Source: Candidatus Fermentibacterota bacterium (lineage in GTDB: Bacteria > JAFGKV01). Taken from it: a DNA stretch of 27,893 nt. The stretch spans positions 1 through 27,893 of the forward strand of contig JAFGKV010000174.1 in assembly GCA_016928395.1 (NCBI GenBank), given 5' to 3'. Of this stretch, positions 3,925-20,902 are shown in pieces (the first letter of the stretch is position 1; the number at the start of each line of letters is the position of its first letter). The position numbers were made by a program, and so were the translations under genes. The notes under the pieces are model-generated. The model saw only the letters and a list, made by a program, of their open reading frames with translations, was not told the origin of the DNA and did not search any database.

Positions 3925-6900
3925 CTACGGCCCCGTGGGGGTCAGGAAATCAGTTTCACCCACCCGGTTAGATGCAGGGCCCTCATTGCCCGATGCATCC
4001 CGGGCGGTCACCACGTAGACCCAGTTGAGTTCCGGATCTCCGGCCCCGCCCTCATCAGTCCACGGAGGGTTCTGCACCGTGGTGAGCAACGACCAGGGGC
4101 CGGGTGTGAAATGGGGGATGACGCTCCGGTACACACGGTATTCCGTGACACCCACATTGTCCCACGGGGCTGACCAGGTGAGCACGACATCCTCTCCATT
4201 CACTCCACGCATGATGCCTAGATCGACAATGCCCTCGGGGGGCACGCCGTCCGCCCCATCCAAGAGCCATGCCAGGGCCTGCTGAAGGAAGATGAGCGGC
4301 TGACTGGGCGGCGCCTGGCCAGAGGTCAATGCCTCGAATGGGGTGGCCATGAATACGACGCGGTAGGCCGTCTGGCCGGAGGCCGGGTAGCGCAGGGCCG
4401 TAATCTGGGCCGAGGTTCCCACCGTGAGGATGCCTGCGGCCCCGGCGTCGGGCACGATGGCATCGGGATACTCCGACATGCCGGCGGGGAAGTCCGTGGG
4501 CATCACCATCCCGGCGGTAATGGGATCCGCCGGGACTCCCCGCACTTCATTGACCGTGATACTCGTCGTGGAGCTTGCCACGTGCAGGTAGGTGGAAGTG
4601 AACGAACTGGATCCGTACGAGGTAAGGTAGTTCTCTGCCGAGAAGAGCAGCGCACCGCCCCCGTCCAGATAGGTCGCCAAGGTCTGCTGGTCCGTCGGTG
4701 ACATGGAGGAGACGTTCTGGTCACCGGCGGTCCACACGACAACCGGATACAAAGACAGCATAGCCAAAGGCACGGAGCCCTGAGCCGGTACATCCCACCA
4801 GTCGAAGCTGTAACCGGAGGCGTTCATGGCGTCCAACAGCCGGCCCTCGATGGGTTCGTCGTCCGTATCAACCACGAGGACCGTGGGCTGACCGAGAACC
4901 AGGGTGAACGGCAAGGTCGCCTGCCACGGCCCCAAGGCATCGACCTGCACGGAGAACGCCGCTACGGCCCCTTCGGGGCACTCGCCGCCCACGGAGATGA
5001 CAAAGGGCTGGGCATTGGTTTCACTCCCCCCTGGATTCAGGGACGGGAACGGAGCAATCGCAAATCCGACGGTCACATCGGGATGCGTGGATGCAACGGT
5101 GCCCTGCACCGACGATGCCGAACCGGAGCCCGTATTGCGCAGATAGACGTAGAGATCGACTGTCTCACCGGGATCTGCCCGGCCATTGCCGTTTCCTCCC
5201 GCATCGTCCACCGCAACCGAGTCGATCTGAAGCACGGGAGCATGAAGCACCATGGCAAACTGCCGAATCCAGGCGCTGTCTCCGGAAGACAAGGCCAACT
5301 CGAACGGCACGACATGGTTGTCGGCCGCTCCCCCGGCCACGGCCAACCGGTAGGGACCTGTGCTTTGGGCCGTCGCATCCGGCGCCATGGATCCGTACCC
5401 CTGTACGGCATCGGTAATAGCTACCATGCCATCGCCGGACGAAAGCGTGCCTGTGACCGGAGGTGCCTCACTTTGGCCAACATTCCAGAGCCGTATGTCG
5501 AGGGCCACAGAGTCTCCCTGTTCCACAATGCCATTCACCGTGCCGAAGGTATCGACTGCCATGAGGGAGTCTATCACCACATACCAGCCTTCCGCCGGCG
5601 CCAGTTGAACCGTTCCCTGGTAGGGAATCCTGTTATGAGCGCTTACCACCAGGTCAACCGGGCCGGGTATCGTGGGAGGCTCGTCAAAGATGATGTGGGC
5701 AGTGCCGCCGGAAACCAGTGCCCGGCCCAGCAGGTCACCGTCACGACTCATGGCAGCCATTGCACCGTCGGTGTCGACCAACACGGTGAAACTTGTCACG
5801 CCCACTACGGATGCAGCATCGTGGTTGACGACCATGGCCGCGGGTTCTGCGGTGTGGATATCCTGGGTGGGATCGCCGTAGTAGTGAAACATCTCCATTT
5901 CCGTGCGCGTCGTGGTGGGATCCGGAGCCCAGGGATACCCCGCGCCGTTGGTCAGCACGTACTTGTCATACATCCACCACTTGGCGAAGTCCACCACCAC
6001 CCCCTGGCGGTAGGTGGGGCTGCCCCACGGATTCTGGCTGGTTCCTCCGGGATAGGAGGGATCAAACCCGGGCCACATGGCATCGTAGATGCCTTTCACC
6101 AGCTCGTCGTTGTACCCGCTGTAACTGACCCGGGTCGCGCCGACCACCCCGACGGCGCCCCCGGGGGAGAGCCGGAGCAACTCCTCGCAGAAGCTCTCGA
6201 AGGTGCTGCTATTGCTGTCGGTTTCCGAATCAAAGTAGCCGGTGAGACAGTTCAGACTGTACACGACCGGGAGCATTGCGCCGTTGGCGAGCTGCGCGAA
6301 ATGCGACAGGGTGAAGCTGGGGTGGCTCCATCCATCGGTATCGCCATGATCCCGGTGATTCACGATGAATGAGCCCGCGTTAAAGTTGGCGATGACATCG
6401 GCCGTGGAGCCTGGCGGCGTTCCCGCCTCGTAGGCACGGGTTACGTCGAAGCCGAGGGAGATCAGATAGTCGTAGATCATGTTGGACACGGTGACAAAGT
6501 ATCTGCCCGCCTCGTCGTATGCGGCCAGGAACACATGGTTGTTCCACCCGCCTGCCGGGGGGTTCTGCTCATAGCCAAGGATCTTCGCAAACGGCCCGCT
6601 TTGGGTTGCGCTGTCCACCGAGATGCGCCCATGGTGGATATCGGCAAAGTAGTCGTCGCCATCCACGGTGGCATACCATAGATCCGTCCCCGTCAAAGTG
6701 CCGTGATAGGGATGCGTATAGAGGTAGTTCGTGGGCATCAGATCCGCATCACCAACCAGGAGCACAAAACTAGGAGGCGTCTCCCAGGTCTCATACGCAG
6801 TCTGGACATACGCGCGAATACCTTCGGCATCCCAGCCCGCCTGAGTGCGGGTAACCATCACCGTGGGGATACCCGACATGCGGCGCCATTGTACCAAAGG

Positions 6901-7662
6901 CTGCACGGCCTCGGAGAACCCATCGGGCACGATGATGAGCAGTTCACCTTCGCCCTCGCGCACGGCGGGGAGCGGAGAAACGCCGCCCACCTGGTCGTAG
7001 TTCAGTAGCATGCCGGCATACAGAGGCTCGAAGAAACGTGACCTGAGCCGCTGCGGCACGAAAAAGCCAGCGCCGCCGGTGAATCGAACGTCAACCCGAC
7101 ACCGGGTATACGCAACCAGTCGGGATGTCTCGGCATAGAATCGCAGCGGAAACACTCCGACGAGCGCCGTCTGCAGGCCCCGCACAGTGTAGGGTTGGCT
7201 CACGAGGAGCCTCTCGGCGGGAAACCCCTGGCCGCCTCGATAGTGGCCGTTGTCCATAATGAAGGGCACCTGGGCGCCATCGAGATCTGGGACCGGCTCC
7301 TGCGCGGGCCACACACGAAAACCCTCAAGTATCACACTGTCCAGCACGGCGATGCTGGCCGAGACCGCGGCCCCTCGGGGAAGGCCGATGAAACGCCCAA
7401 CATACGGAATTTCCGGCAGCCCCACGTCTGCAGTCCGTCCTGAGGATGGCAGGCGAAGCCGCTGGAACGGCCCGCCTTCGTGCTCTATGTCCTCGACCCA
7501 CATACCGCCAAGACCCACCTCGTATACGCAGCCCGACAGGTCATTGGAGAGCATGGTGATGGCAATCCCTGCCGGCTCCCCCTCGCCGGCGAAAGACACC
7601 CACCGCTCATCTGCCCGTGAGTGAGCTATCAGAAGAAGCAGAATGGCAAAGAATCGCGTCAC
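3925..7662 (-). CDS. Secreted gingipain-type C25 cysteine peptidase, multidomain
   Basis: A 1245-residue exported protease. The GTG start is preceded by GAGGGAG seven bases away and begins a signal peptide (MTRFFAILLLLIAHSRA). Residues about 20-235 form a C25-type propeptide. The peptidase domain (about 240-605) has the catalytic His in NHRDHG (H439) and Cys in SLNCLTG (C472), followed by the family's FHYYGDPTQ segment. An Ig-like C25 tail domain (about 610-680) comes next. Then follow two CARDB-like adhesive/beta modules, one with a GNGRADPGE motif (about 690-930). A class I glutamine-amidotransferase/ThuA-like alpha/beta domain (about 935-1130) precedes a C-terminal fibronectin-III module (about 1140-1235) ending VGETDF. 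No type IX secretion C-terminal domain is evident. It faces the GAF-GGDEF gene across a divergent intergenic region. It is probably a surface or secreted endopeptidase; specificity cannot be read. Confidence 0.9.
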   Translation of the reverse strand: MTRFFAILLLLIAHSRADERWVSFAGEGEPAGIAITMLSNDLSGCVYEVGLGGMWVEDIEHEGGPFQRLRLPSSGRTADVGLPEIPYVGRFIGLPRGAAVSASIAVLDSVILEGFRVWPAQEPVPDLDGAQVPFIMDNGHYRGGQGFPAERLLVSQPYTVRGLQTALVGVFPLRFYAETSRLVAYTRCRVDVRFTGGAGFFVPQRLRSRFFEPLYAGMLLNYDQVGGVSPLPAVREGEGELLIIVPDGFSEAVQPLVQWRRMSGIPTVMVTRTQAGWDAEGIRAYVQTAYETWETPPSFVLLVGDADLMPTNYLYTHPYHGTLTGTDLWYATVDGDDYFADIHHGRISVDSATQSGPFAKILGYEQNPPAGGWNNHVFLAAYDEAGRYFVTVSNMIYDYLISLGFDVTRAYEAGTPPGSTADVIANFNAGSFIVNHRDHGDTDGWSHPSFTLSHFAQLANGAMLPVVYSLNCLTGYFDSETDSNSSTFESFCEELLRLSPGGAVGVVGATRVSYSGYNDELVKGIYDAMWPGFDPSYPGGTSQNPWGSPTYRQGVVVDFAKWWMYDKYVLTNGAGYPWAPDPTTTRTEMEMFHYYGDPTQDIHTAEPAAMVVNHDAASVVGVTSFTVLVDTDGAMAAMSRDGDLLGRALVSGGTAHIIFDEPPTIPGPVDLVVSAHNRIPYQGTVQLAPAEGWYVVIDSLMAVDTFGTVNGIVEQGDSVALDIRLWNVGQSEAPPVTGTLSSGDGMVAITDAVQGYGSMAPDATAQSTGPYRLAVAGGAADNHVVPFELALSSGDSAWIRQFAMVLHAPVLQIDSVAVDDAGGNGNGRADPGETVDLYVYLRNTGSGSASSVQGTVASTHPDVTVGFAIAPFPSLNPGGSETNAQPFVISVGGECPEGAVAAFSVQVDALGPWQATLPFTLVLGQPTVLVVDTDDEPIEGRLLDAMNASGYSFDWWDVPAQGSVPLAMLSLYPVVVWTAGDQNVSSMSPTDQQTLATYLDGGGALLFSAENYLTSYGSSSFTSTYLHVASSTTSITVNEVRGVPADPITAGMVMPTDFPAGMSEYPDAIVPDAGAAGILTVGTSAQITALRYPASGQTAYRVVFMATPFEALTSGQAPPSQPLIFLQQALAWLLDGADGVPPEGIVDLGIMRGVNGEDVVLTWSAPWDNVGVTEYRVYRSVIPHFTPGPWSLLTTVQNPPWTDEGGAGDPELNWVYVVTARDASGNEGPASNRVGETDFLTPTGP

Positions 7663-7870
7663 GAGACTACTCCCTCGGTTGGGGATCTATGGAACCGGGC
7701 CATGGATAATGCCCACAGAGTACCCCATGACAGCCCATCTGTCCAGTAGACGAGGCCGGCCTTGCCGGTGCGTGCGTGGCATGGTAGAATCACAGGCATC
7801 CTGCTTCCGCCTTCTGGCTCCGCGCACGCCAGGCGGGATCCGGCCGCACCCGAACCGCGGGAGTCATCCC
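7663..7870. other. Divergent intergenic region, C25 peptidase / GAF-GGDEF
   Basis: This 208-base spacer separates two divergently transcribed genes. It holds the ribosome-binding sequence of the peptidase gene next to 7662 and, on the plus strand, a good sigma70-like promoter for the GGDEF gene (7762-7790). A weak minus-strand candidate (CTGTCA, 16 bases, CATTAT; four of six matches each) could serve the peptidase but is not convincing. The plus-strand reading frame of the GGDEF gene stays open through this spacer, but that part looks non-coding because the promoter lies within it. Confidence 0.6.
7762..7790 (+). promoter_or_regulatory. Sigma70-like promoter of the GAF-GGDEF gene
   Basis: TTGCCG (7762-7767), a 17-base spacer, and TAGAAT (7785-7790) form a near-consensus sigma70-type promoter pointing at the GGDEF gene. 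Transcription would start near 7797, giving a leader of about 74 bases before the ATG at 7871. Its location supports the internal ATG rather than the more upstream in-frame starts. Confidence 0.65.
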
Positions 7871-8911
7871 ATGAGGACAAGCCCTCCGATGATCGACCTG
7901 GGCGAACGGGAGAAACTGCTCGCCTGCCTTGAGATCGGCAAAGCCCTTACGTCCACCCTTGATCTGCCCGAAGTGCTGCACCTCATCATGAACACGGGAA
8001 GTCAGATCATTGCGGCCGAGAACTGGAGCCTGCTGTTGCGGGATCCTGACACAGGGGAACTCTCCTTCCAGGTAGTGGTTGGGCTTGACCCTGCTCTGGT
8101 CAAGGATCTGCGCCTGCCCAAAGGTGTGGGCTTCGTTGGATATGTCGCCGAGACCGGCCAGCCGCTCTACGTGCCGGATGCACGTCGCGACGTACGGTTC
8201 AATCCCGATGTAGACCGACGTACCGGGTTCGTGACCCGTTCGGTGATCTGTCTTCCGCTGACCGTCAGGGGCAGCGTTCTGGGCGTGGTGGAAGTAGTCA
8301 ATGTGGAGGATGTGAACGTCTTCCAGAATCGAGAGGCTCCCCTGCTTCGCGTGCTGACCGACTACGCTGCCATCGCCATCGAGAACTCGCGATACGTGCA
8401 ACGCATCCAAGAGCTGACCGTTACCGACGAGTATACTGGCCTGCCAAACGCCCGTTACCTCTATGCCACGCTGGACGAGCTGCTGACCGAAGCCCGCGCC
8501 TGTGGCACACCGCTCTCGGTGGCGTTTGCGGATCTGGACAACTTCAAACAGGTGGTGGATACCCATGGTCATCTCATGGGCAGCAGAGTCTTGCGAGAGG
8601 TCGGCGCGGTTATGAAGACGGCCCTGACGACCGAAGATATCCTCGTCAAGTACGGGGGTGACGAGTATGTCATACTCATGCCGGGTAGGGACAAGCCCGA
8701 GGCGTACGCCGCGTTGGAGGATGTCCGCAGGGCCGTTGCCGCAGCTCGGTTTCTAGCCGATGCCGAGCGAACGACATCTGTCACAGCAAGCATCGGCGTC
8801 GCGACGTTTCCCACTGACGGCTCTACGGCTCGCGACATTTTGCTGCGCGCGGATAGCGCCATGTACGAGGCAAAAAAGACCAAAAACACAGTCGCGTTCG
8901 TGCCCGGTTAG
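7871..8911 (+). CDS. GAF-GGDEF protein with degenerate cyclase site
   Basis: A 346-residue cytoplasmic protein. The ATG at 7871 is preferred because CGGGAG lies seven bases upstream and a promoter lies further upstream. A GAF sensor domain spans about residues 27-172. A helical linker follows, then a GGDEF domain (about 185-345) with signature GGDEY (262-266) and the metal Asp in FADLDNFK (D221). Such domains make cyclic di-GMP from two GTP. However, the two residues that contact guanine in PleD (N335 and D344) are Val229 and Ser238 here, and the inhibitory I-site RxxD is TTED. It may therefore be inactive as a cyclase, or bind another nucleotide. No EAL or PilZ partner is in view. Domain identity is firm; activity is doubtful. 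Confidence 0.9.
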   Translation: MRTSPPMIDLGEREKLLACLEIGKALTSTLDLPEVLHLIMNTGSQIIAAENWSLLLRDPDTGELSFQVVVGLDPALVKDLRLPKGVGFVGYVAETGQPLYVPDARRDVRFNPDVDRRTGFVTRSVICLPLTVRGSVLGVVEVVNVEDVNVFQNREAPLLRVLTDYAAIAIENSRYVQRIQELTVTDEYTGLPNARYLYATLDELLTEARACGTPLSVAFADLDNFKQVVDTHGHLMGSRVLREVGAVMKTALTTEDILVKYGGDEYVILMPGRDKPEAYAALEDVRRAVAAARFLADAERTTSVTASIGVATFPTDGSTARDILLRADSAMYEAKKTKNTVAFVPG

Positions 8912-13003: not shown

Positions 13004-15340
13004 CTAGGACCCGTCGTCCATCTCGTAGTCGTGCTCACCGACAGTAGCCGACGGATCGGATTCATTCAGTGCCGCGTCATGGGCCGTGACGCGGAAGTAA
13101 TAGTTCACCGCAGGATCGCCGAGACTGCCGGCAACGGAGTATGACGTTCCGGCCGTCGTGCCCAATACTTCCGAACCGCTCACCTCGAAGTAGGCAGCCT
13201 GGCTCCTGTATACGCTGTAGCCCGTCACCCCCACATTGTCGGTCGAGGGCGACCAGGTCAGCATGCCATCGGAACCTAGAGCGGCATTGCCGGGCGCCGT
13301 CGGCGGCTCGGTATCAACGCCGGCCGGGCCGACACCCTCACCCACGGCCACCAGCGAGAACCGCTGCAGGTCATCTTGCAGACTGTCGTAGTAGTGCACC
13401 GTGATGGCATAGGTCCCGGCCTCGGGGGTGCGCAGCCACACCACCTCCGTGGTATTCAGGCGGTCGGCACTGCCCCCGGTGGCGCTCTGTCCGCCTGTGA
13501 ACACATTGCCGAGATAGGTTGCCCCTCCAGGCGCCTGCACCGTCAAGTCTATATCATTCTTGATCTTGGGGCCGCTGCCGGCCAAGGCCCCAGGCTTGTC
13601 CGACCAGCAGAGCACGATTTTCAGCTCACCACCGCAGGCGGCAGTAATCTGCCAGTCCTGAGTGGCGCCCTCTGCGATGCCGCTGGTATCCTGGTAGACC
13701 CACATGGTCCGGGAACGACCGGCGAAGTAGAGGGCATCATCCAGCACGACAAAACCCCATCCCGTACGATCATTGGGTGGTGCGAAGTCAATGGCGTCCC
13801 GAGTCGAGGCGACCATGGTTCCCTTGAGAAGCGAATTGAGAGGAAGGAAACCATCCGACGGATTGGCGCTCCCGCTGGGATAGTAGCCGTTCATGTAGTA
13901 CGAGCGCACCAAGGCTGCGCTGCCGGCCGCGATAGGCGATGACATGCTCGTGCCGGTGCCCATGGCATACCCGGTGTCCGAGTTGTTGGCCGCCGAGCTG
14001 ATGTTTTCCCCCGGAGTGAGGAAGGTCGGCGCGTGCCGGCCGTCCGCCGTGGGTCCCCGTGCTGAAAAATAGGCCAGCAGATTGCCGTTGGTGCTGTTCC
14101 TGCTGGCGCCGACGCAGAGCACTGACTTGGCGCAGGCAGGCGATCCCACATAGAAGTTGGGCGGATTATTGCCCGCTGCAACGGATGCCAGTTCGAATGG
14201 GTAGTACCACATGTAGGAGTCACAACTGGCGTCATTCGTGCCGTACGAGCCTTCGCTGTCATTGCCCCAGCTGCAGTTGTGGATCTTCGCCCCGTGGAGG
14301 CTGGCGCTGTAGAACATGGAGTACGGCGTGCCGCAATAGAGGCCGCCCGCGGTTCCCACATCCGTGACAACCAGCTTCGCCGTCTTGGCCATGCCATCCT
14401 TAATGGTCCAGGTGTCGTCGTCTCCGGCGACGCTGCACGCCACGTGAGTTCCATGTCCGTACGGGGGATAGGGATCATACTCATCGCCGAAGGACCCGTT
14501 GCCCATGGGGGTGCCGTCAAGATAGGCCACGATCTTGCGGTGAGTCGGGTAGACGCCAAAATCGGTGATGGGCACGGCGGGGTCAACAAACGCGCAGTGG
14601 GTGGTCCGCACGCCTGAATCGTTCACCTCAATAATCTGATCCGTGCCGGTCAGCCCGGCGTCCCAGATCGGCCGCGAGTTGGCCGCGAAGCTCTGGGTTA
14701 CCCACTGGGCATTCTGGTTGAAGAGATGAATGGGGAGATTCTCTTCGATCCACTGCACTTCGCGTCGAGCAGCGACCGAAGCCAGGCCGGTCGCGGGAAA
14801 CGTGACCCGGATCAACCACTGATCGGGGCCGAGACGCATGGCGGCCGGGGGAAAACCCTGTGAGTCCAGCCACTGCGCCAAGGGGGAGGCATCCTCGCCG
14901 GGATGCAGCACAATGTTCAGCTCCATGGATCCATCGCGGCCATGGAGGTTCGGAGGCAGCTTGAACCACGGATGCCACAGGTCAAACCACACGACGGAGG
15001 AAGACTCCAGGGCACGAAGCGATGTCAGGGGAAGTCTAATAATGTACGCGTTGTGAGGCAGGTAATCTATGAGCTCCGCGCCCATGTCCCGCAGAGCCTG
15101 ACGCTCGGCACGTGAGGCGGGGGGGAAAAGCAAAACGATGAAGTAGTCATATTCAGCCGCGGCTACGCCGCGCCACGCCTCGGGCACGGACACAGGCACG
15201 CGGGTGGGCTCCAGAGTCCCGCTGTGAAGCAGAATGGTCGATCCCAGCACGGGATCCGAACGCACATCGGAAGCACCGGCCGGGGCAACCGCGAATCCGA
15301 GCAGCGCGACAACAAGCCCAAGCACCACGAATCTCGACAT
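13004..15340 (-). CDS. Secreted KP-43-type subtilisin-like protease with FN3 tail
   Basis: A 778-residue exported S8 serine protease. The ATG (AAGGGAG six bases upstream) begins a signal peptide (about 1-23). A long N-terminal pro-region runs to about 215. The catalytic domain has Asp241 in EVNDSGV, His296 in YGHGTHVACSVAG, oxyanion Asn391 in AAGNN, and Ser465 in GTGTSMSSPIAAG. A beta-sandwich of the KP-43/proprotein-convertase P type follows (about 545-685; LKIVLCWSDKPG, then KNDIDLTVQAPGG). A C-terminal fibronectin-III module (about 690-770; TWSPSTDNVGVTGYSVYRS) ends in VGEHDY. The FN3 core nearly repeats that of the C25 peptidase in this window. It is downstream of the hydantoinase gene (45-base gap). 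It is likely an extracellular or cell-surface endopeptidase. Confidence 0.93.
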   Translation of the reverse strand: MSRFVVLGLVVALLGFAVAPAGASDVRSDPVLGSTILLHSGTLEPTRVPVSVPEAWRGVAAAEYDYFIVLLFPPASRAERQALRDMGAELIDYLPHNAYIIRLPLTSLRALESSSVVWFDLWHPWFKLPPNLHGRDGSMELNIVLHPGEDASPLAQWLDSQGFPPAAMRLGPDQWLIRVTFPATGLASVAARREVQWIEENLPIHLFNQNAQWVTQSFAANSRPIWDAGLTGTDQIIEVNDSGVRTTHCAFVDPAVPITDFGVYPTHRKIVAYLDGTPMGNGSFGDEYDPYPPYGHGTHVACSVAGDDDTWTIKDGMAKTAKLVVTDVGTAGGLYCGTPYSMFYSASLHGAKIHNCSWGNDSEGSYGTNDASCDSYMWYYPFELASVAAGNNPPNFYVGSPACAKSVLCVGASRNSTNGNLLAYFSARGPTADGRHAPTFLTPGENISSAANNSDTGYAMGTGTSMSSPIAAGSAALVRSYYMNGYYPSGSANPSDGFLPLNSLLKGTMVASTRDAIDFAPPNDRTGWGFVVLDDALYFAGRSRTMWVYQDTSGIAEGATQDWQITAACGGELKIVLCWSDKPGALAGSGPKIKNDIDLTVQAPGGATYLGNVFTGGQSATGGSADRLNTTEVVWLRTPEAGTYAITVHYYDSLQDDLQRFSLVAVGEGVGPAGVDTEPPTAPGNAALGSDGMLTWSPSTDNVGVTGYSVYRSQAAYFEVSGSEVLGTTAGTSYSVAGSLGDPAVNYYFRVTAHDAALNESDPSATVGEHDYEMDDGS

Positions 15341-15385: not shown

Positions 15386-16762
15386 TCAGAGAGGGTAAGC
15401 CGGGCGGCCTCTCACAAGGGGAAGCCCGACAGAATCATCGCCGACAAGACGCCCTCTCTCTGCCACAAGACTCCCCCGAAGATACACTCGCTCGGGAGGA
15501 GAAGCCACCATGCGCCCTTCATAGGGGCTCCACCCTGCCTTTGACACCAGCCTTTGTGCATGTATGGGCATGCGACCCTGAGGGTCAAGGATAACGATGT
15601 CTGCATCGCTGCCAACACCCAGGCTGCCCTTTTGGGGGTACACACCCAAAAGCCGTGCAGGATTGGCCGACATGAGCCGTACCAGATCGGTGATACCGAT
15701 CCTTCCCCCGTGCACTCCCAGCCCGGTCATGACCCGAAGGCTCACCTCCACTCCCGGGATTCCTCCGGGGATACGCGAAAAATCCCCTGCCCACGCATCC
15801 TTGGACGACAGGGAAAATCCGCAGCTATCCGTCGCCACCACGTGCAAATCGCCGGCCGCAACGGCCTGCCACAGGGCGTCAGCGTGAAGCGCCGACCGCA
15901 GTGGAGGAGCGGTGGCATACCTGTGCCCCCCATCCACACCCAGCATCTCCTCAGTCAGCACCAAGTAATGAGGGCAGGTCTCTCCGCTGGCCCAAGCACC
16001 CGAGGCTCGGGCATCGGCCACGTGCCGAATTGAGCCCCCGCATGACAGATGCACAAGATGAATGCGCCCACCGGCGTGGCGAGTGAACGCCAAGACACGG
16101 TAGACCGCCTCCTCTTCAGCTTCCACCGGATGGGATCGCGCCACGGCCAGAGCGCCCTCTCCCCGGCGGCGTGTGGCATCCGATAGAACGCGTACCATTG
16201 CGTCGTTCTCCGCGTGCGCCAAGATGACGAACTCACCCCCGGCCGACGCCTCGATGACCCGGAACAGGGTCTCATCGTCCAGGTAGAGACCGCGCGATCT
16301 GTAGGTGGTGAAGACCTTCACTGAACGGATCTGGCCCGCCAGTGAGAGCACCCTGAGTTCCTCTTCCACTGCCCCGTCCAGCCGAGTGATCATGAGATGC
16401 ACTGCCCAGTCGCATGCGGCGGCCCGCCACGTCTCCCCATGCCGCGCCAGGCTCTCTGACAGGGAGCCTCTCACCTCGGCGAAATCGGCCACGGTAGTCA
16501 CGCCGCCCACCAAAGCCGAGCGCGAACCGGAGGCGACATCGTCTGCCGTTGCGACGCCCTGCGCCTTCAAGAAGAGGTGCACGTGGGGATCAACCACACC
16601 GGGAAGCACCCATAACCCCTCGCACGGGACGATCTCGGCCCCGGTGGAAGAGACGGTGCCGCGGGCGGCAACCGTGCCCGCCTCCACGAGCATGTCTTCA
16701 ACGGTCACACCACCCTCATCGATGATCGATCCCCCCCTGAATACCGTTCGCCGCGGCATCAT
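15386..16762 (-). CDS. Dihydropyrimidinase/hydantoinase-like amidohydrolase
   Basis: A 458-residue cytoplasmic amidohydrolase of the cyclic-amide group that hydrolyses rings such as hydantoin, dihydropyrimidine, dihydroorotate or allantoin. The bimetal ligands are visible: His60/His62 in VVDPHVHLF, the carboxylatable Lys149 in SVKVFTTYRSRG, His183 in LAHAEND, His238 in LVHLSCG and Asp312 in VATDSCGFS. The C-terminal NPARLLGVYPQKGSLGVGSD is typical of D-hydantoinase/dihydropyrimidinase. The loop TDSCGFSLSSK differs slightly from the usual TDHCPF/SDNCTF type. No pyr or allantoin genes are nearby, so the substrate is uncertain. It overlaps the REC-DnaA gene by ATGA, so it is translated in the same unit as the two-component pair. 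Confidence 0.88.
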   Translation of the reverse strand: MMPRRTVFRGGSIIDEGGVTVEDMLVEAGTVAARGTVSSTGAEIVPCEGLWVLPGVVDPHVHLFLKAQGVATADDVASGSRSALVGGVTTVADFAEVRGSLSESLARHGETWRAAACDWAVHLMITRLDGAVEEELRVLSLAGQIRSVKVFTTYRSRGLYLDDETLFRVIEASAGGEFVILAHAENDAMVRVLSDATRRRGEGALAVARSHPVEAEEEAVYRVLAFTRHAGGRIHLVHLSCGGSIRHVADARASGAWASGETCPHYLVLTEEMLGVDGGHRYATAPPLRSALHADALWQAVAAGDLHVVATDSCGFSLSSKDAWAGDFSRIPGGIPGVEVSLRVMTGLGVHGGRIGITDLVRLMSANPARLLGVYPQKGSLGVGSDADIVILDPQGRMPIHAQRLVSKAGWSPYEGRMVASPPERVYLRGSLVAERGRLVGDDSVGLPLVRGRPAYPL

Positions 16763-18564
16763 CCCCGGGCCAGACGCAGCCAGGCCCTGGTCTGGGCCGT
16801 GCTGAGGGTGCCACTGACCATCAGAGGAATTTCGTCGGGAACCCGGAACAGCCGTCTGAGACTCCGGGAGAGGGTCTCCTTGGCCGCCTGAAGCCCATCT
16901 TCTCCGACGCTTACCAAGACAACCACCGCAGCCGCTCTTCCCTGGGGCACCGTGCCGACGAGCTTGCGGGCCTCCATTATCTTGGGGCTCATGCTGTCAA
17001 GGACGACCAGATAGGTGGGCGGATAGTGCGACTCCACGGCCCGGCTGAGATCATCCCCCGGAGTCCACGAGGTGGTACCGACGATAACCCATCGGGCACC
17101 TGGCCCCTCCACATGCACCAGATACGCCCATCGATCGCCCTCGGGAATCTTGGGAGCATGCTCCCGCTTTCCCACCAAGGCTTCCACGGTGTCCATGACC
17201 AACGCCGACGACGGTCCCAACACCACAACCGGCGCGGCCTGCGGCAGGGCCGAGGCGATCTCCTCGGGGTAGCCGATAACCCTGGCGATGGGCACCGGCC
17301 TTCCGAATTCCTCCCCGATGGTATTGTCGTCAAGCTGACCCGCTCTCTGATCCCCCCGCGGCCCCTGCGAGGACGGGGAGGCTTCGATCAGCCCTTCATC
17401 CCGCTCCTCTTCGTCTGAACGCATTACGAGTCTGGCCAGCTCATCCACGGTCTCCCTGGTGACCACTGTCCCCCCGAAAGCCCGCATGGCCACAAGCTTG
17501 CGGGCCGCCCCCTCCATGCTCCTCACGTCCGTATCAAGCTTGGAAGCAAGGTAGTCTAGCAAATCGTCACTGATCTCCCACCCTTTCTGCCTCGCCTTGA
17601 GGCGAAGAATCCGCGACCTCAGCGTCGCATCAGGTCGGTCGATCTCCACCACCAAGCCGAACGCGAAGCCGCTGGTCATCTCTTCCGAAAGGGTCTCCAG
17701 TTCCTCGGGCTTTCGGTCGCTGGTGATGAGAATCTGTCTGCCATGCTCGTACATGTCATACAGGATCTCAGCCGCCACCATCTGAAGGCTGGGCGAGATG
17801 GCGAGAAACTGGATGTCGTCGATCATGAGAAGATCCAGTTTGGTATAGGAGCGACGCAGCTCATCCACCTGCCGCTTCTCGTGCGCATCCAGGACCTGTT
17901 GGCTGAAAATCTCCGAGGAGACATACTCGATCTTGGCGTCGGGCTGCCGCACGTGGATCTCATTGGCCAGGGCACACATGAGATGAGTCTTCCCCAGACC
18001 CGAGCCTCCGAACAGAAAGAGAGGGTTGAACCGAGTGCCCGGGCTCTCCGCTGCAGACTTCGCAGCCTCCGCAGCAGAACGATTGCCCACCCCGATGACA
18101 AAGTTGTCAAATCGATACTCCGCCAGGTGACGAAGCCCTTCCACCTCGAAGGGTCCCTGGGACGAAGCGTCGATGCGTTCCCGAACCTCAGCCTTGCGAC
18201 GCAGCATCGATCTGACGCGAGCCACTAGCTCCCGGGGGCTGAAGGGCTTGGTCAAGTAGTCATCGGCACCCAGTTCCAGACCGCGAACCTTGTCATCCTC
18301 CTCCCCCTTCGCGCTCAGCATCATCAGCGGCGTATTTCCCACCAGGCGATCGCTGCGGACACGCCGAATAAGCTCAAAGCCGTCCACCCGGGGCATCATG
18401 ATGTCACTAATGACCAGATCCGGATGCTCCCCCCGGATTACCTCCAACCCCTGCTCTCCATCTTGGGCGGTCAGCACGTCGAATCCGCTCCGCTCGATGG
18501 TGGTCTGCAGGAGTTTGAGGATAAGAGGATCGTCGTCGATGACCAGGATGCGGGCTTCGCTCAT
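16759..18564 (-). CDS. Response regulator: REC fused to DnaA-type AAA+ ATPase plus unassigned alpha/beta domain
   Basis: A 601-residue fusion. The ATG at 18564 is preferred over a GTG at 18579 because AGGGG precedes it by a few bases and it lies one base after the kinase stop. Residues 5-122 are an intact receiver: acidic D11/D12, phospho-acceptor D54 in VISDIMMP, S84 and K106 in LTKPFSP. Residues about 149-385 match the DnaA ATPase (domain III): YRFDNFVIGVGNRSA, Walker A GGSGLGKT (186-193), Walker B LLMIDDIQF (about 245-253), sensor I ILITSDRKPEEL and sensor II Arg348 in DVRSMEGAARKL. The DnaA box VII arginine finger (SRF) reads SGF at G299, and the DNA-binding domain IV is absent. Residues about 445-600 form another alpha/beta domain resembling a small GTPase without a working P-loop. 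Output is probably protein-protein rather than DNA binding (inference). Confidence 0.9.
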   Translation of the reverse strand: MSEARILVIDDDPLILKLLQTTIERSGFDVLTAQDGEQGLEVIRGEHPDLVISDIMMPRVDGFELIRRVRSDRLVGNTPLMMLSAKGEEDDKVRGLELGADDYLTKPFSPRELVARVRSMLRRKAEVRERIDASSQGPFEVEGLRHLAEYRFDNFVIGVGNRSAAEAAKSAAESPGTRFNPLFLFGGSGLGKTHLMCALANEIHVRQPDAKIEYVSSEIFSQQVLDAHEKRQVDELRRSYTKLDLLMIDDIQFLAISPSLQMVAAEILYDMYEHGRQILITSDRKPEELETLSEEMTSGFAFGLVVEIDRPDATLRSRILRLKARQKGWEISDDLLDYLASKLDTDVRSMEGAARKLVAMRAFGGTVVTRETVDELARLVMRSDEEERDEGLIEASPSSQGPRGDQRAGQLDDNTIGEEFGRPVPIARVIGYPEEIASALPQAAPVVVLGPSSALVMDTVEALVGKREHAPKIPEGDRWAYLVHVEGPGARWVIVGTTSWTPGDDLSRAVESHYPPTYLVVLDSMSPKIMEARKLVGTVPQGRAAAVVVLVSVGEDGLQAAKETLSRSLRRLFRVPDEIPLMVSGTLSTAQTRAWLRLARG

Positions 18565-18565
18565 G

Positions 18566-19732
18566 TCAACCCCTATCACGGCCGAGAGCTTCGGCCATCT
18601 TGCCGGGGCGCCGCGGTATCACGAAGCTGAACACGGTACCACGATCAGGACGGCTAGTGACGCGGACGCTCCCTCCGTGAAGTTCCACGAAGTGCTTCAC
18701 GATGGAAAGACCGATGCCCAGGCCTCCATGTTGCCTCCGATCCGAGCTATCCTCCTGCCGGAAAGCCAGAAACAGGTCGCGCAGCTTCTCCTGGGAGAGG
18801 CCCTTGCCCGCATCCGCAACGCTGAAGAGCACCGCTTTGCCCGCATCGCTGATCTCTAAGTCAATAACCCCGCCGGGGGGGCTAAACTTGACCGCATTGG
18901 ACAGTAGATTCTGAAGGGCCTTGCTCAGTTTGGCGCTATCACCGGTAAGCAGACCAGCGCGAGAATCGATGTTGACGCTCACGGCGAAACCGCGGGTGCG
19001 CGCGTCGCGAAGCAGATCATTCACCTTGCCTTGCAGCACATGGTCGGCCGGGAACATCGAGAGCTCCAGGGGCAGCGCACCGGCCTCGGCCTTGGAGAGC
19101 ATCATCAAGTCTTCGATAAGCGCTTTGAGTTGGTTGGAGCTGCGTACGATGTTCCTTGCGAACTCAGCGGTCTTCTCCGGATCGAGACCTCCCGCGGCCA
19201 GGAGTTCAGAATAGCCGATGACCTCGGTGAGGGGGGTACGCAGTTCATGGCTGATGAGTGAGAGAAACTCCGACTTCAATCTGATGGCTTCCTCACTGGA
19301 GCCTCGCAGCGTCTTCACGGCGTCCCTCATCTCCGCCAACTGGACATGCATATCATGGAGATCAACGGCGTGTTCAATGATCGAGGCAAGCTCAAGACGC
19401 CGCAGAGGCCGCTGCAGCACCAGAAAACGGTGGGAACCAAGATCTAGTGCAGCCAAATCGTCCTCCAGCGAGGAGGCTACCACGATCATCAGGGTGTGCG
19501 GGCTCATGGACGCCAGGAGATCCTTCACCTCGACGCAGTGCCCGTCTCTCACCCAAATCTCGCTGAGGATCGCGACGGGTTGTATGCTGTTGAGAAGCTC
19601 GCGCAACAGCGCGACCCTGCCGATCGCATGGACCCGATGGCCCCTGAGCACCTCGTGGGTTGTGTCGACATCGGCATCAGGCAGGCCGAGCAGCACGATG
19701 TCCTTTGGTTCGCCGATGATCCGTTCAGTCAT
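18566..19732 (-). CDS. Soluble histidine kinase with N-terminal pseudo-receiver
   Basis: A 388-residue sensor kinase without a transmembrane segment. Residues about 10-128 have the order of a receiver domain, but the acidic pocket is lost (VLLGLPDAD). The phospho-acceptor position carries Glu58 (LSEIWVRDG) and the conserved Lys-Pro is Arg-Pro (108-109). A coiled linker leads to HisKA with H162 in LISHELRTPLTEVIGYSE. HATPase follows with N box NLLSNAVKFSPPGG, G1 VADAGKGLS, F box LFLAFRQ and G2 GGLGIGLSIVKH. It should autophosphorylate and phosphorylate the REC-DnaA protein encoded next. The kinase gene overlaps the end of dapF by eight bases and its stop is one base from the regulator ATG. The input signal is unknown, presumably read through the pseudo-receiver. 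Confidence 0.93.
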   Translation of the reverse strand: MTERIIGEPKDIVLLGLPDADVDTTHEVLRGHRVHAIGRVALLRELLNSIQPVAILSEIWVRDGHCVEVKDLLASMSPHTLMIVVASSLEDDLAALDLGSHRFLVLQRPLRRLELASIIEHAVDLHDMHVQLAEMRDAVKTLRGSSEEAIRLKSEFLSLISHELRTPLTEVIGYSELLAAGGLDPEKTAEFARNIVRSSNQLKALIEDLMMLSKAEAGALPLELSMFPADHVLQGKVNDLLRDARTRGFAVSVNIDSRAGLLTGDSAKLSKALQNLLSNAVKFSPPGGVIDLEISDAGKAVLFSVADAGKGLSQEKLRDLFLAFRQEDSSDRRQHGGLGIGLSIVKHFVELHGGSVRVTSRPDRGTVFSFVIPRRPGKMAEALGRDRG

Positions 19733-20642
19733 GACAGTCTCCGTCGATGCCCGGCCATCGCCGGCCCAGCACGCCGAGGCCGCGCCTCATCACGTTCCAT
19801 CCTGCACCGCATCCCTCCGCCTGTTCGTCCGGTGGGAGGAATCCGAGGAAAACCAATCCCGCCTCGCCTTCGATCCAGATTCGCCCCTCAGGGTCAGGCC
19901 ACACGCGAAGTATGCCGCCCGGCTGTCGTACTCGAGTAACCTCGGATGCAAAGCGGCCTGCCCGCCACGTAGCGGCGGCGGCGGCAGCCGCGCCGCTGCC
20001 GCATGCCCGCGTCCACCCGACGCCCCGCTCCAGAACCTCAAGCTCGATGCTCTCATCCCGCGTGGTGCAGAAGCCCACATTGGCCCCTCCTGCAACTGCG
20101 GAAACAAGCTCCGCAGCCAGCTTCTCCTGTCGTTCTCGGGCTTCGGGGCCATCGAACACGACGATGTGGGGATTGGGCATGAACACCAGTGCCCCGGAGG
20201 CATCCCACGCTCCAAGTATCTCGTCAAGAGCCGGAGATGCCCGAAACCTGGGGATGCCCAGCCCAACCGCGCTCGGGAAGCCAGGGCCAGCTATCTCCAC
20301 AGGAAACACGGCATCGGTGATCCTGAAGCAGATTGACCCCGGCATGAAGAAGCCCAGGTCTCTCCCTCCGACCGCAAGGGCCCGCAGACCGTTGCCGCAG
20401 ACCTCCGCAGTTGACCCGTCCGCATTGAGAAACCAGAGTTCGGGATTGTGAGACGCCCCGTTCCACAGTACGATGCCATCCGCGCCCACGCCCAGTCGGC
20501 GATCGCAGACGCGCGGGGCGCGCCGGCTCATCTCCCGCACCGAGTTCGAAGCGGCGGGGTCAAGTATCCAGATAAGATCGTTGCCCAGCGCCTCTACCTT
20601 GGCAAATGGAGTGAGGCCTGGAGGAAACCGACTACGATCCAT
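19725..20642 (-). CDS. dapF: Diaminopimelate epimerase
   Basis: A 305-residue enzyme converting LL- to meso-diaminopimelate for lysine and peptidoglycan synthesis. I prefer the ATG at 20642, since the family begins shortly before the KVEALGNDLI motif; an in-frame start at 20702 would add 20 residues. The two catalytic cysteines are present: Cys82 in NADGSTAEVCGNGLRA and Cys214 in TRACGSGAAA. Substrate residues in GNDLI and PNPHIVVF are also kept. One change stands out: the usual ERGxGET reads ERGVGWT. The C-terminal IEGEAGLVFLG is typical, followed by an extra tail of about 37 residues. It lies downstream of the NagZ-like and LD-carboxypeptidase genes and overlaps the kinase gene, linking wall precursor metabolism with the two-component pair. 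Confidence 0.93.
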   Translation of the reverse strand: MDRSRFPPGLTPFAKVEALGNDLIWILDPAASNSVREMSRRAPRVCDRRLGVGADGIVLWNGASHNPELWFLNADGSTAEVCGNGLRALAVGGRDLGFFMPGSICFRITDAVFPVEIAGPGFPSAVGLGIPRFRASPALDEILGAWDASGALVFMPNPHIVVFDGPEARERQEKLAAELVSAVAGGANVGFCTTRDESIELEVLERGVGWTRACGSGAAAAAAATWRAGRFASEVTRVRQPGGILRVWPDPEGRIWIEGEAGLVFLGFLPPDEQAEGCGAGWNVMRRGLGVLGRRWPGIDGDCHD

Positions 20643-20902
20643 AGAATACTCTTGGGGTGAGTCCTTTCCCCCGCACAAACGCACCGCCGACGGCATGCCC
20701 ACGGCACCCGCTGATCCTCTTCGTACGCCGGCTTCTGTGGGGCTTCACCCCCATGGCTGTCCCCTTGACACGCCGAGCCGTATCGCACGATGGTCCTTCG
20801 GAGGCTGGGAGGGTGATTCCGGCGACCAGTCCTCGTCGCTGTGGATAGTGGTGGGGCGCATAGAATCACACATCGCGTCACCTCGGGTTCTCAAACCAGA
20901 CG
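20643..20902. other. Spacer between the GH3 gene and dapF
   Basis: A 260-base non-coding stretch follows the GH3 stop and precedes dapF. It contains a small hairpin (TGGGG/CCCCA around 20735-20752) without a T-run and, on the plus strand, TAGAATCACA at 20860-20869 with no -35 match. No convincing minus-strand promoter for dapF was found. An alternative in-frame dapF start at 20702 lies inside it. Confidence 0.5.

Follow-up and report, generated by a model that had tools for sequence, protein, structure and literature searches.

The window analysed here comprises positions 1 to 27,893 of contig JAFGKV010000174.1 from a Candidatus Fermentibacterota bacterium, assembly GCA_016928395.1. It carries a gene for a response regulator in which a receiver domain is joined to the AAA+ domain (domain III) of the DnaA type and then to a C-terminal domain that, from its sequence, is best called a pseudo-GTPase (Table 1). 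The gene starts with an ATG at 18564, downstream of an in-frame GTG (18579) that is the mechanical start of the open reading frame, and is coupled to an upstream histidine kinase gene whose stop codon lies one base before this ATG (TGAcATG). DnaA is known as the initiator of replication. Our best reading is that a little-known bacterium has reworked the ATPase part of its replication starter into signalling proteins that form a family, are controlled by phosphorylation and lack a DNA-binding part.

The anatomy of the regulator is well supported. Pfam identifies Response_reg at residues 6-118 (E = 6e-33) and Bac_DnaA at 149-307 (E = 9e-49), without a Sigma54 family, Bac_DnaA_C or DnaA_N, and the Pfam and NCBIfam matches listed include neither a sigma54-interaction AAA+ domain nor a DNA-binding helix-turn-helix (HTH). 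The NCBIfam model for DnaA, TIGR00362, spans residues 143-386 with 254 bits, which is under its equivalog cut-off of 343.9, as expected for a protein in which domain IV is absent.

Table 1. The regulator, its domains and neighbouring genes in the window, and the Bac_DnaA matches of the same genome
Feature	Position	Strand	Remarks
Response regulator: receiver, DnaA domain III AAA+, predicted pseudo-GTPase	16759..18564	-	601 residues; open reading frame, Pfam/NCBIfam, homologues, AlphaFold model, superposition
Receiver domain, OmpR/PhoB type	18187..18564	-	residues 1-126; Pfam, NCBIfam, alignment, superposition
DnaA-type AAA+ domain	17407..18153	-	residues 138-386; Pfam, alignment, tree, superposition
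Disordered, unconstrained linker	17326..17406	-	about residues 387-413; dN/dS about 0.95; pLDDT <50 for 384-410
C-terminal domain, predicted pseudo-GTPase, lineage-specific	16762..17325	-	residues 414-601; predicted fold, YsxC/EngB match, homologue alignment
Histidine kinase (HisKA-HATPase_c)	18566..19732	-	Pfam, gene coupling, synteny
dapF-like gene	19725..20702	-	overlaps kinase start by 8 bases; identified by eye from the sequence
Amidohydrolase	15386..16762	-	ATG overlaps regulator stop by 4 bases; gene order conserved in G001 and G002
Canonical DnaA with domain IV	contig C126		own genome; 1 of 13 matches
Receiver-DnaA-C-terminal domain proteins, four	contigs C218 (window), C78, C20, C126		own genome
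Receiver-DnaA proteins without the C-terminal domain, two	contigs C150 (short), C311 (long)		own genome
Four Bac_DnaA domains in three MshEN-type proteins	contig C299		own genome
Two weak Bac_DnaA matches	one on contig C234		own genome; the C234 match is IstB adjoining a transposase-like gene

The best structural match of the AAA+ model is domain III of B. subtilis DnaA (8bv3), at 2.2 Å over 228 columns and a TMt of 0.88, whereas NtrC-type structures (NtrX, NtrC) fit poorly, with TMt values of about 0.3-0.4 and root mean square deviations (rmsd) of 15-22 Å. When the sequence is compared with those of solved structures, DnaA from B. subtilis (E = 7e-50) and DnaA from T. maritima and A. aeolicus rank first, and Hda (5x06) reaches only E = 5e-8. 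An NtrC-type AAA+ domain is ruled out by the Pfam families and by the superposition. Like the NtrC-type sigma54 activators, the regulator is a phospho-controlled type of AAA+ protein, with a receiver followed by the ATPase, but its AAA+ domain comes from another clade and there is neither a sigma54 domain nor an HTH.

These results confirm and extend an earlier note on this DNA, made from the sequence alone, which had given the place, strand and domain order of the gene and had assigned its AAA+ domain to DnaA and not to NtrC. The motifs that it quoted (NFVIGVGNRSA, SDRKPEEL and DVRSMEGA) are all present, Pfam, TIGR00362 and superposition agree with the assignment, and structure prediction, which it had proposed as a check, points the same way. 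It had also stated that there is no domain IV for binding DnaA boxes, and indeed Bac_DnaA_C is absent from the regulator and from all 12 homologues; since these come from three genomes and share an identical domain order, the absence is real and loss of domain IV by assembly error is ruled out. What the note overlooked is that the arginine finger and the DNA-contact motif of DnaA have been lost, that the C-terminal domain folds like a GTPase but its P-loop is dead, and that the protein belongs to a paralogous family.

In the window protein, Walker A (GGSGLGKT), Walker B (MIDD), sensor I (D283) and sensor II (R348) are retained, and the GKT of Walker A, the DD of Walker B and both sensor residues recur in 12/12 full-length copies. 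We compared 18 receiver-DnaA domains, 12 of them from full-length copies, with those of 29 canonical DnaA proteins, which show hardly any variation in the box VII arginine, the arginine finger (RLxSRF type) and QEEFFHTFN. The box VII arginine is absent from all 18 receiver-DnaA domains and the finger from 15, the three that retain it being the C20 copy, its orthologue and one copy of the same-family genome G002; the window protein has E295 and G299 at the respective positions. KERxQEEFFHTFN has become S-x-S-[LM]-Q-x-VA in every full-length copy. In E. coli, DnaA molecules contact each other through R285, R281 and K243, and single-stranded DNA is bound by R245 (PMC5742627); the position of R245 is a serine in 12/12. 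The regulator is therefore like an initiator in the fold and sequence of domain III, Walker A and B, the sensor I aspartate and the sensor II arginine, but it has a receiver at the N-terminus and lacks domains I/II and IV, the counterparts of R285 and R281 (arginine finger and box VII arginine) and the KERxQEEFFHTFN motif. The true DnaA of the same genome (L010) has domain IV and an intact finger. Because the ATP site is retained and the contact and single-stranded DNA residues are lost, these residues suggest that the AAA+ domain is likely an ATP-binding switch, and that a self-activating filament or DNA unwinding by the regulator is unlikely.

The receiver superposes on the OmpR/PhoB-type receiver 1mvo (TMt 0.93, 54% identity) and is also matched by TIGR02154 (PhoB). 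Its D10, D11, D54, S84 and K106 are intact, and the alignment shows the acidic pocket, phospho-Asp, Ser/Thr (position 84) and Lys in all 12 full-length copies. The linkage to a histidine kinase gene is a further likeness to OmpR/PhoB response regulators; in place of their winged helix, the regulator has the DnaA-type ATPase and the pseudo-GTPase.

Predicted alone with 12 homologues, the C-terminal domain gave a confident model (pLDDT 89.9, pTM 0.89) whose nearest solved folds are GTPases, with YsxC/EngB at Z 12.4 and rmsd 3.4 over 163 residues. A profile search yielded a weak match to the GTPase Der (E = 0.017), a comparison with viral structures only matches to GTPases in general, and Pfam no family for any of the 12 C-terminal domains. 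The domain could in principle be an active GTPase with an unusual site, making the protein an ATP and GTP switch, and the high-confidence fold, together with the invariant glycine (G450) that starts and the invariant aspartate (D458) that ends the P-loop position in the 12 homologues, would fit this. However, GK[S/T] of the P-loop is missing in 12/12, so that the domain has the TRAFAC GTPase fold without GxxxxGK[S/T] (0/12), and we regard GTPase activity as very unlikely. The pseudo-GTPase label follows from this loss, which leaves the domain without the residues for usual GTP binding; a nucleotide may yet bind in some other way. The fold is like that of YsxC/EngB, Der, other TRAFAC GTPases and the pseudo-GTPases of p190RhoGAP (PMC5593906), from all of which the domain differs by the uniformly missing GK[S/T] and an identity of only about 8-12%. 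MglA was considered as its origin, but the profile comparison came back empty and only a general GTPase fold is supported.

The fold also bears on whether the protein regulates transcription by binding nucleic acid, DNA or RNA, through its AAA+ or its C-terminal domain. DNA-binding outputs are usual for OmpR/PhoB-type receivers, and domain III binds single-stranded DNA in DnaA (PMC5742627). Against this, Pfam finds no HTH or other DNA-binding family, the C-terminal domain folds as a GTPase and the R245 equivalent is a serine throughout, which makes a nucleic-acid-binding regulator improbable.

The gene is a member of a paralogous family and no singleton. The genome (4.79 Mb, 343 contigs) has 13 Bac_DnaA matches, and four full-length copies each are present in this genome, in G001 of the same genus and in G002. 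With the two proteins that lack the C-terminal domain, there are six receiver-DnaA paralogues per genome (4+1+1). Receiver-DnaA proteins without a pseudo-GTPase lie at L013:3825-5045 and L014:5271-6785, the latter of the long type with a divergent receiver (27% identity). Alongside one real DnaA, the genome has ten other ATPase domains of the DnaA type, of which six stand under receivers, and this suggests reuse as a signalling module. Among 386 sampled genomes, the C-terminal domain occurs in three, all of family f1, and the receiver-DnaA fusion likewise only in f1; the phyla of G107 and G026, with 2-3 genomes each, gave no receiver-DnaA match. The sample apparently holds two or three genomes per phylum, and a second sampling centre gave largely the same genomes, so that rarity is established but exclusivity is not. 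A search of 85,000 named species genomes with a single degenerate peptide pattern, which sets a lower bound, found the C-terminal domain only in the same metagenome-assembled genomes, under the names Candidatus Eisenbacteria (Prado127) and Candidatus Fermentibacteria (CSMAG_2897).

Relative to the G001 orthologue (78% identity), dN/dS is 0.07 for the receiver, 0.09 for the AAA+ domain, 0.10 for the C-terminal domain and 0.95 for the linker, which implies constraint on all three domains. A decaying DnaA duplicate without function might be suspected from the lost finger and domain IV, but it is already contradicted by this selection, with dN/dS near 0.1 in the domains next to a neutral linker, by the invariant ATP-site and phospho-acceptor residues (12/12) and by the fact that all three genomes have kept four copies each; we dismiss it almost entirely.

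In an IQ-TREE phylogeny of 64 AAA+ domains, all 18 receiver-DnaA domains lie on one side of a branch (support 99/90), and they group with four MshEN-DnaA domains of the same family (100/98). Deeper in the tree, all accessory forms are set apart from canonical DnaA, including the genome's own (96/86). The regulator thus belongs with the accessory, MshEN-type clade. Since the receiver-DnaA domains form one clade, the receiver fusion probably arose once, perhaps with the receiver replacing an MshEN-type input domain. The two groups are alike in joining a sensory N-terminal domain to a DnaA ATPase, and unlike in that input: MshEN, a domain found in ATPases of pili and secretion systems, is a receptor for c-di-GMP (cyclic di-GMP) (PMC5013675), and the coiled-coil member of the MshEN group retains the arginine finger.

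Several relatives lie beside pilus or polarity genes. Outside this phylum, an MshEN-DnaA gene of G026 directly adjoins PilB with MshEN and T2SSE (L091), and an operon of G118 reads Robl/LC7 (MglB-like), MglA-like GTPase, DUF4388, MshEN-DnaA, DUF4388 (L104:3364-7677); another DnaA-AAA+ protein of G118 is near a PilT-like gene (L106). The own genome's MshEN-DnaA cluster (L009) is downstream of a prepilin-peptidase-like gene, identified by eye, and PilB comes after this cluster in G002 (L049). The own genome also holds MglB-MglA-DUF4388 (L119). Tandem-DnaA proteins neighbour DUF4388 in G107 and G243, and TPR-DnaA proteins occur in G014 and G301. Within L009:4940-14341 (contig C299), four MshEN genes stand in a row, three with a DnaA AAA+ domain; one of these proteins has two DnaA domains, and one keeps its finger intact and carries a coiled-coil-like tail of great length. 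DnaA-AAA+ proteins of about 700 residues are found at L105:3393-5498, L107:1424-3517 and L090:2021-4096, two of them shown with tandem DnaA domains and with a DUF4388 gene close by. The TPR proteins (L088:5958-11000, L087:2-4732) exceed 1500 residues and end in a DnaA AAA+ domain with an intact finger.

The tree bears directly on whether the regulator acts on the replication initiator, its phosphorylation letting the DnaA-like domain cap or block DnaA filaments and so coupling replication to the kinase signal. Its intact ATP site could accept the finger of the true DnaA, and Hda, a DnaA paralogue, controls DnaA in E. coli (PMC5742627). However, the AAA+ domain groups with MshEN-DnaA and not with the lineage's own DnaA, the finger is lost, a receiver stands in place of Hda's N-terminal clamp site, a single target would hardly call for six receiver-DnaA paralogues per genome, and no copy adjoins dnaA, the nearest being about 13 kb away on C126. 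We therefore consider such a role unlikely. The earlier note had drawn a comparison with DnaA paralogues such as Hda and DnaC. The regulator does resemble Hda, DnaC and IstB as a DnaA-like AAA+ protein without domain IV, but sequence similarity to them is lower, there is no N-terminal clamp-binding stretch and the finger position is mostly lost in its family. With the finger gone from 15/18 domains and the box VII arginine from 18/18, the analogy is weakened, and the tree points to MshEN-DnaA. The note's interpretation is thus partly supported overall, and its phospho-controlled, ATP-binding scaffold is our leading reading.

In this leading reading, to which we give an even chance, the response regulator has as its output an ATPase of the DnaA type that no longer takes part in replication, and it acts as a kinase-controlled, ATP-binding, DNA-free scaffold. 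By analogy with known families, the coupled kinase would phosphorylate D54 and the receiver would dimerise via its alpha4-beta5-alpha5 face, pairing two ATP-bound DnaA modules. As the module has no arginine finger of its own, it would form no self-hydrolysing filament, and its residues suggest an ATP-binding end piece or a scaffold accepting a partner's finger. Relatives point to the same-cell MshEN-DnaA-coiled-coil ATPase, with its finger retained, as the most likely donor, and to a controlled machine related to the envelope or polarity (type IV pilus/MglA type) and not to oriC. The pseudo-GTPase would offer a surface for protein docking and so direct each paralogue to its own target.

Several observations weigh against this reading. 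Three of the 12 full-length copies still have an arginine at the finger position. A kinase is adjacent to seven copies, so that its constant presence, a check named in the earlier note, does not hold; five have no neighbouring kinase, one of these at a contig end. The bootstrap of the AAA+ tree is not fully settled. The full-length AlphaFold model (mean pLDDT 78.9) has a pTM of 0.45, which leaves the placement of the domains uncertain. No receiver-DnaA gene was seen adjoining pilus or MglA genes, so that the output pathway is deduced from the sister clade, and G002 has no MglA match at E 1e-8, which means that MglA is not required.

More tentatively, and with less than even confidence, we propose that a second, non-replicative branch of DnaA ATPases in several phyla (MshEN-DnaA, TPR-DnaA, tandem DnaA with DUF4388) serves signalling and pilus or polarity machines through hetero-assemblies of finger-less and finger-bearing members, and was made phosphorylation-controlled here via receivers and pseudo-GTPases. 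The gene neighbourhoods hint at such a link between DnaA-type ATPases and the type IV pilus/MglA machinery. The regulator would widen the known outputs of two-component systems and offer natural finger-less DnaA modules for filament-assembly studies. The earlier note knew of no characterised system with this domain order; in a literature with few subscription papers, we found no paper on a receiver-DnaA-pseudo-GTPase protein and none on MshEN-DnaA ATPases beside PilB or MglA.

Around the regulator, the order dapF-kinase-regulator-amidohydrolase-S8 peptidase is common to G001 and G002, so that the linked kinase gene is both coupled and in conserved synteny. A promoter and terminator scan gave results at or under chance, and Rfam reported only the tRNA. 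The N-terminal 120 residues of the kinase resemble a degenerate receiver (QRP for the usual KP) in a weak profile alignment. In three genomes, the gene for the S8 subtilase, a large peptidase (13004-15340 of the window), shares conserved synteny with the regulator. Farther away, the window encodes a GAF-GGDEF diguanylate cyclase (7643-8911), which might supply the MshEN-DnaA proteins with c-di-GMP, and a large C25 (gingipain-type) peptidase with a propeptide (3925-7662).

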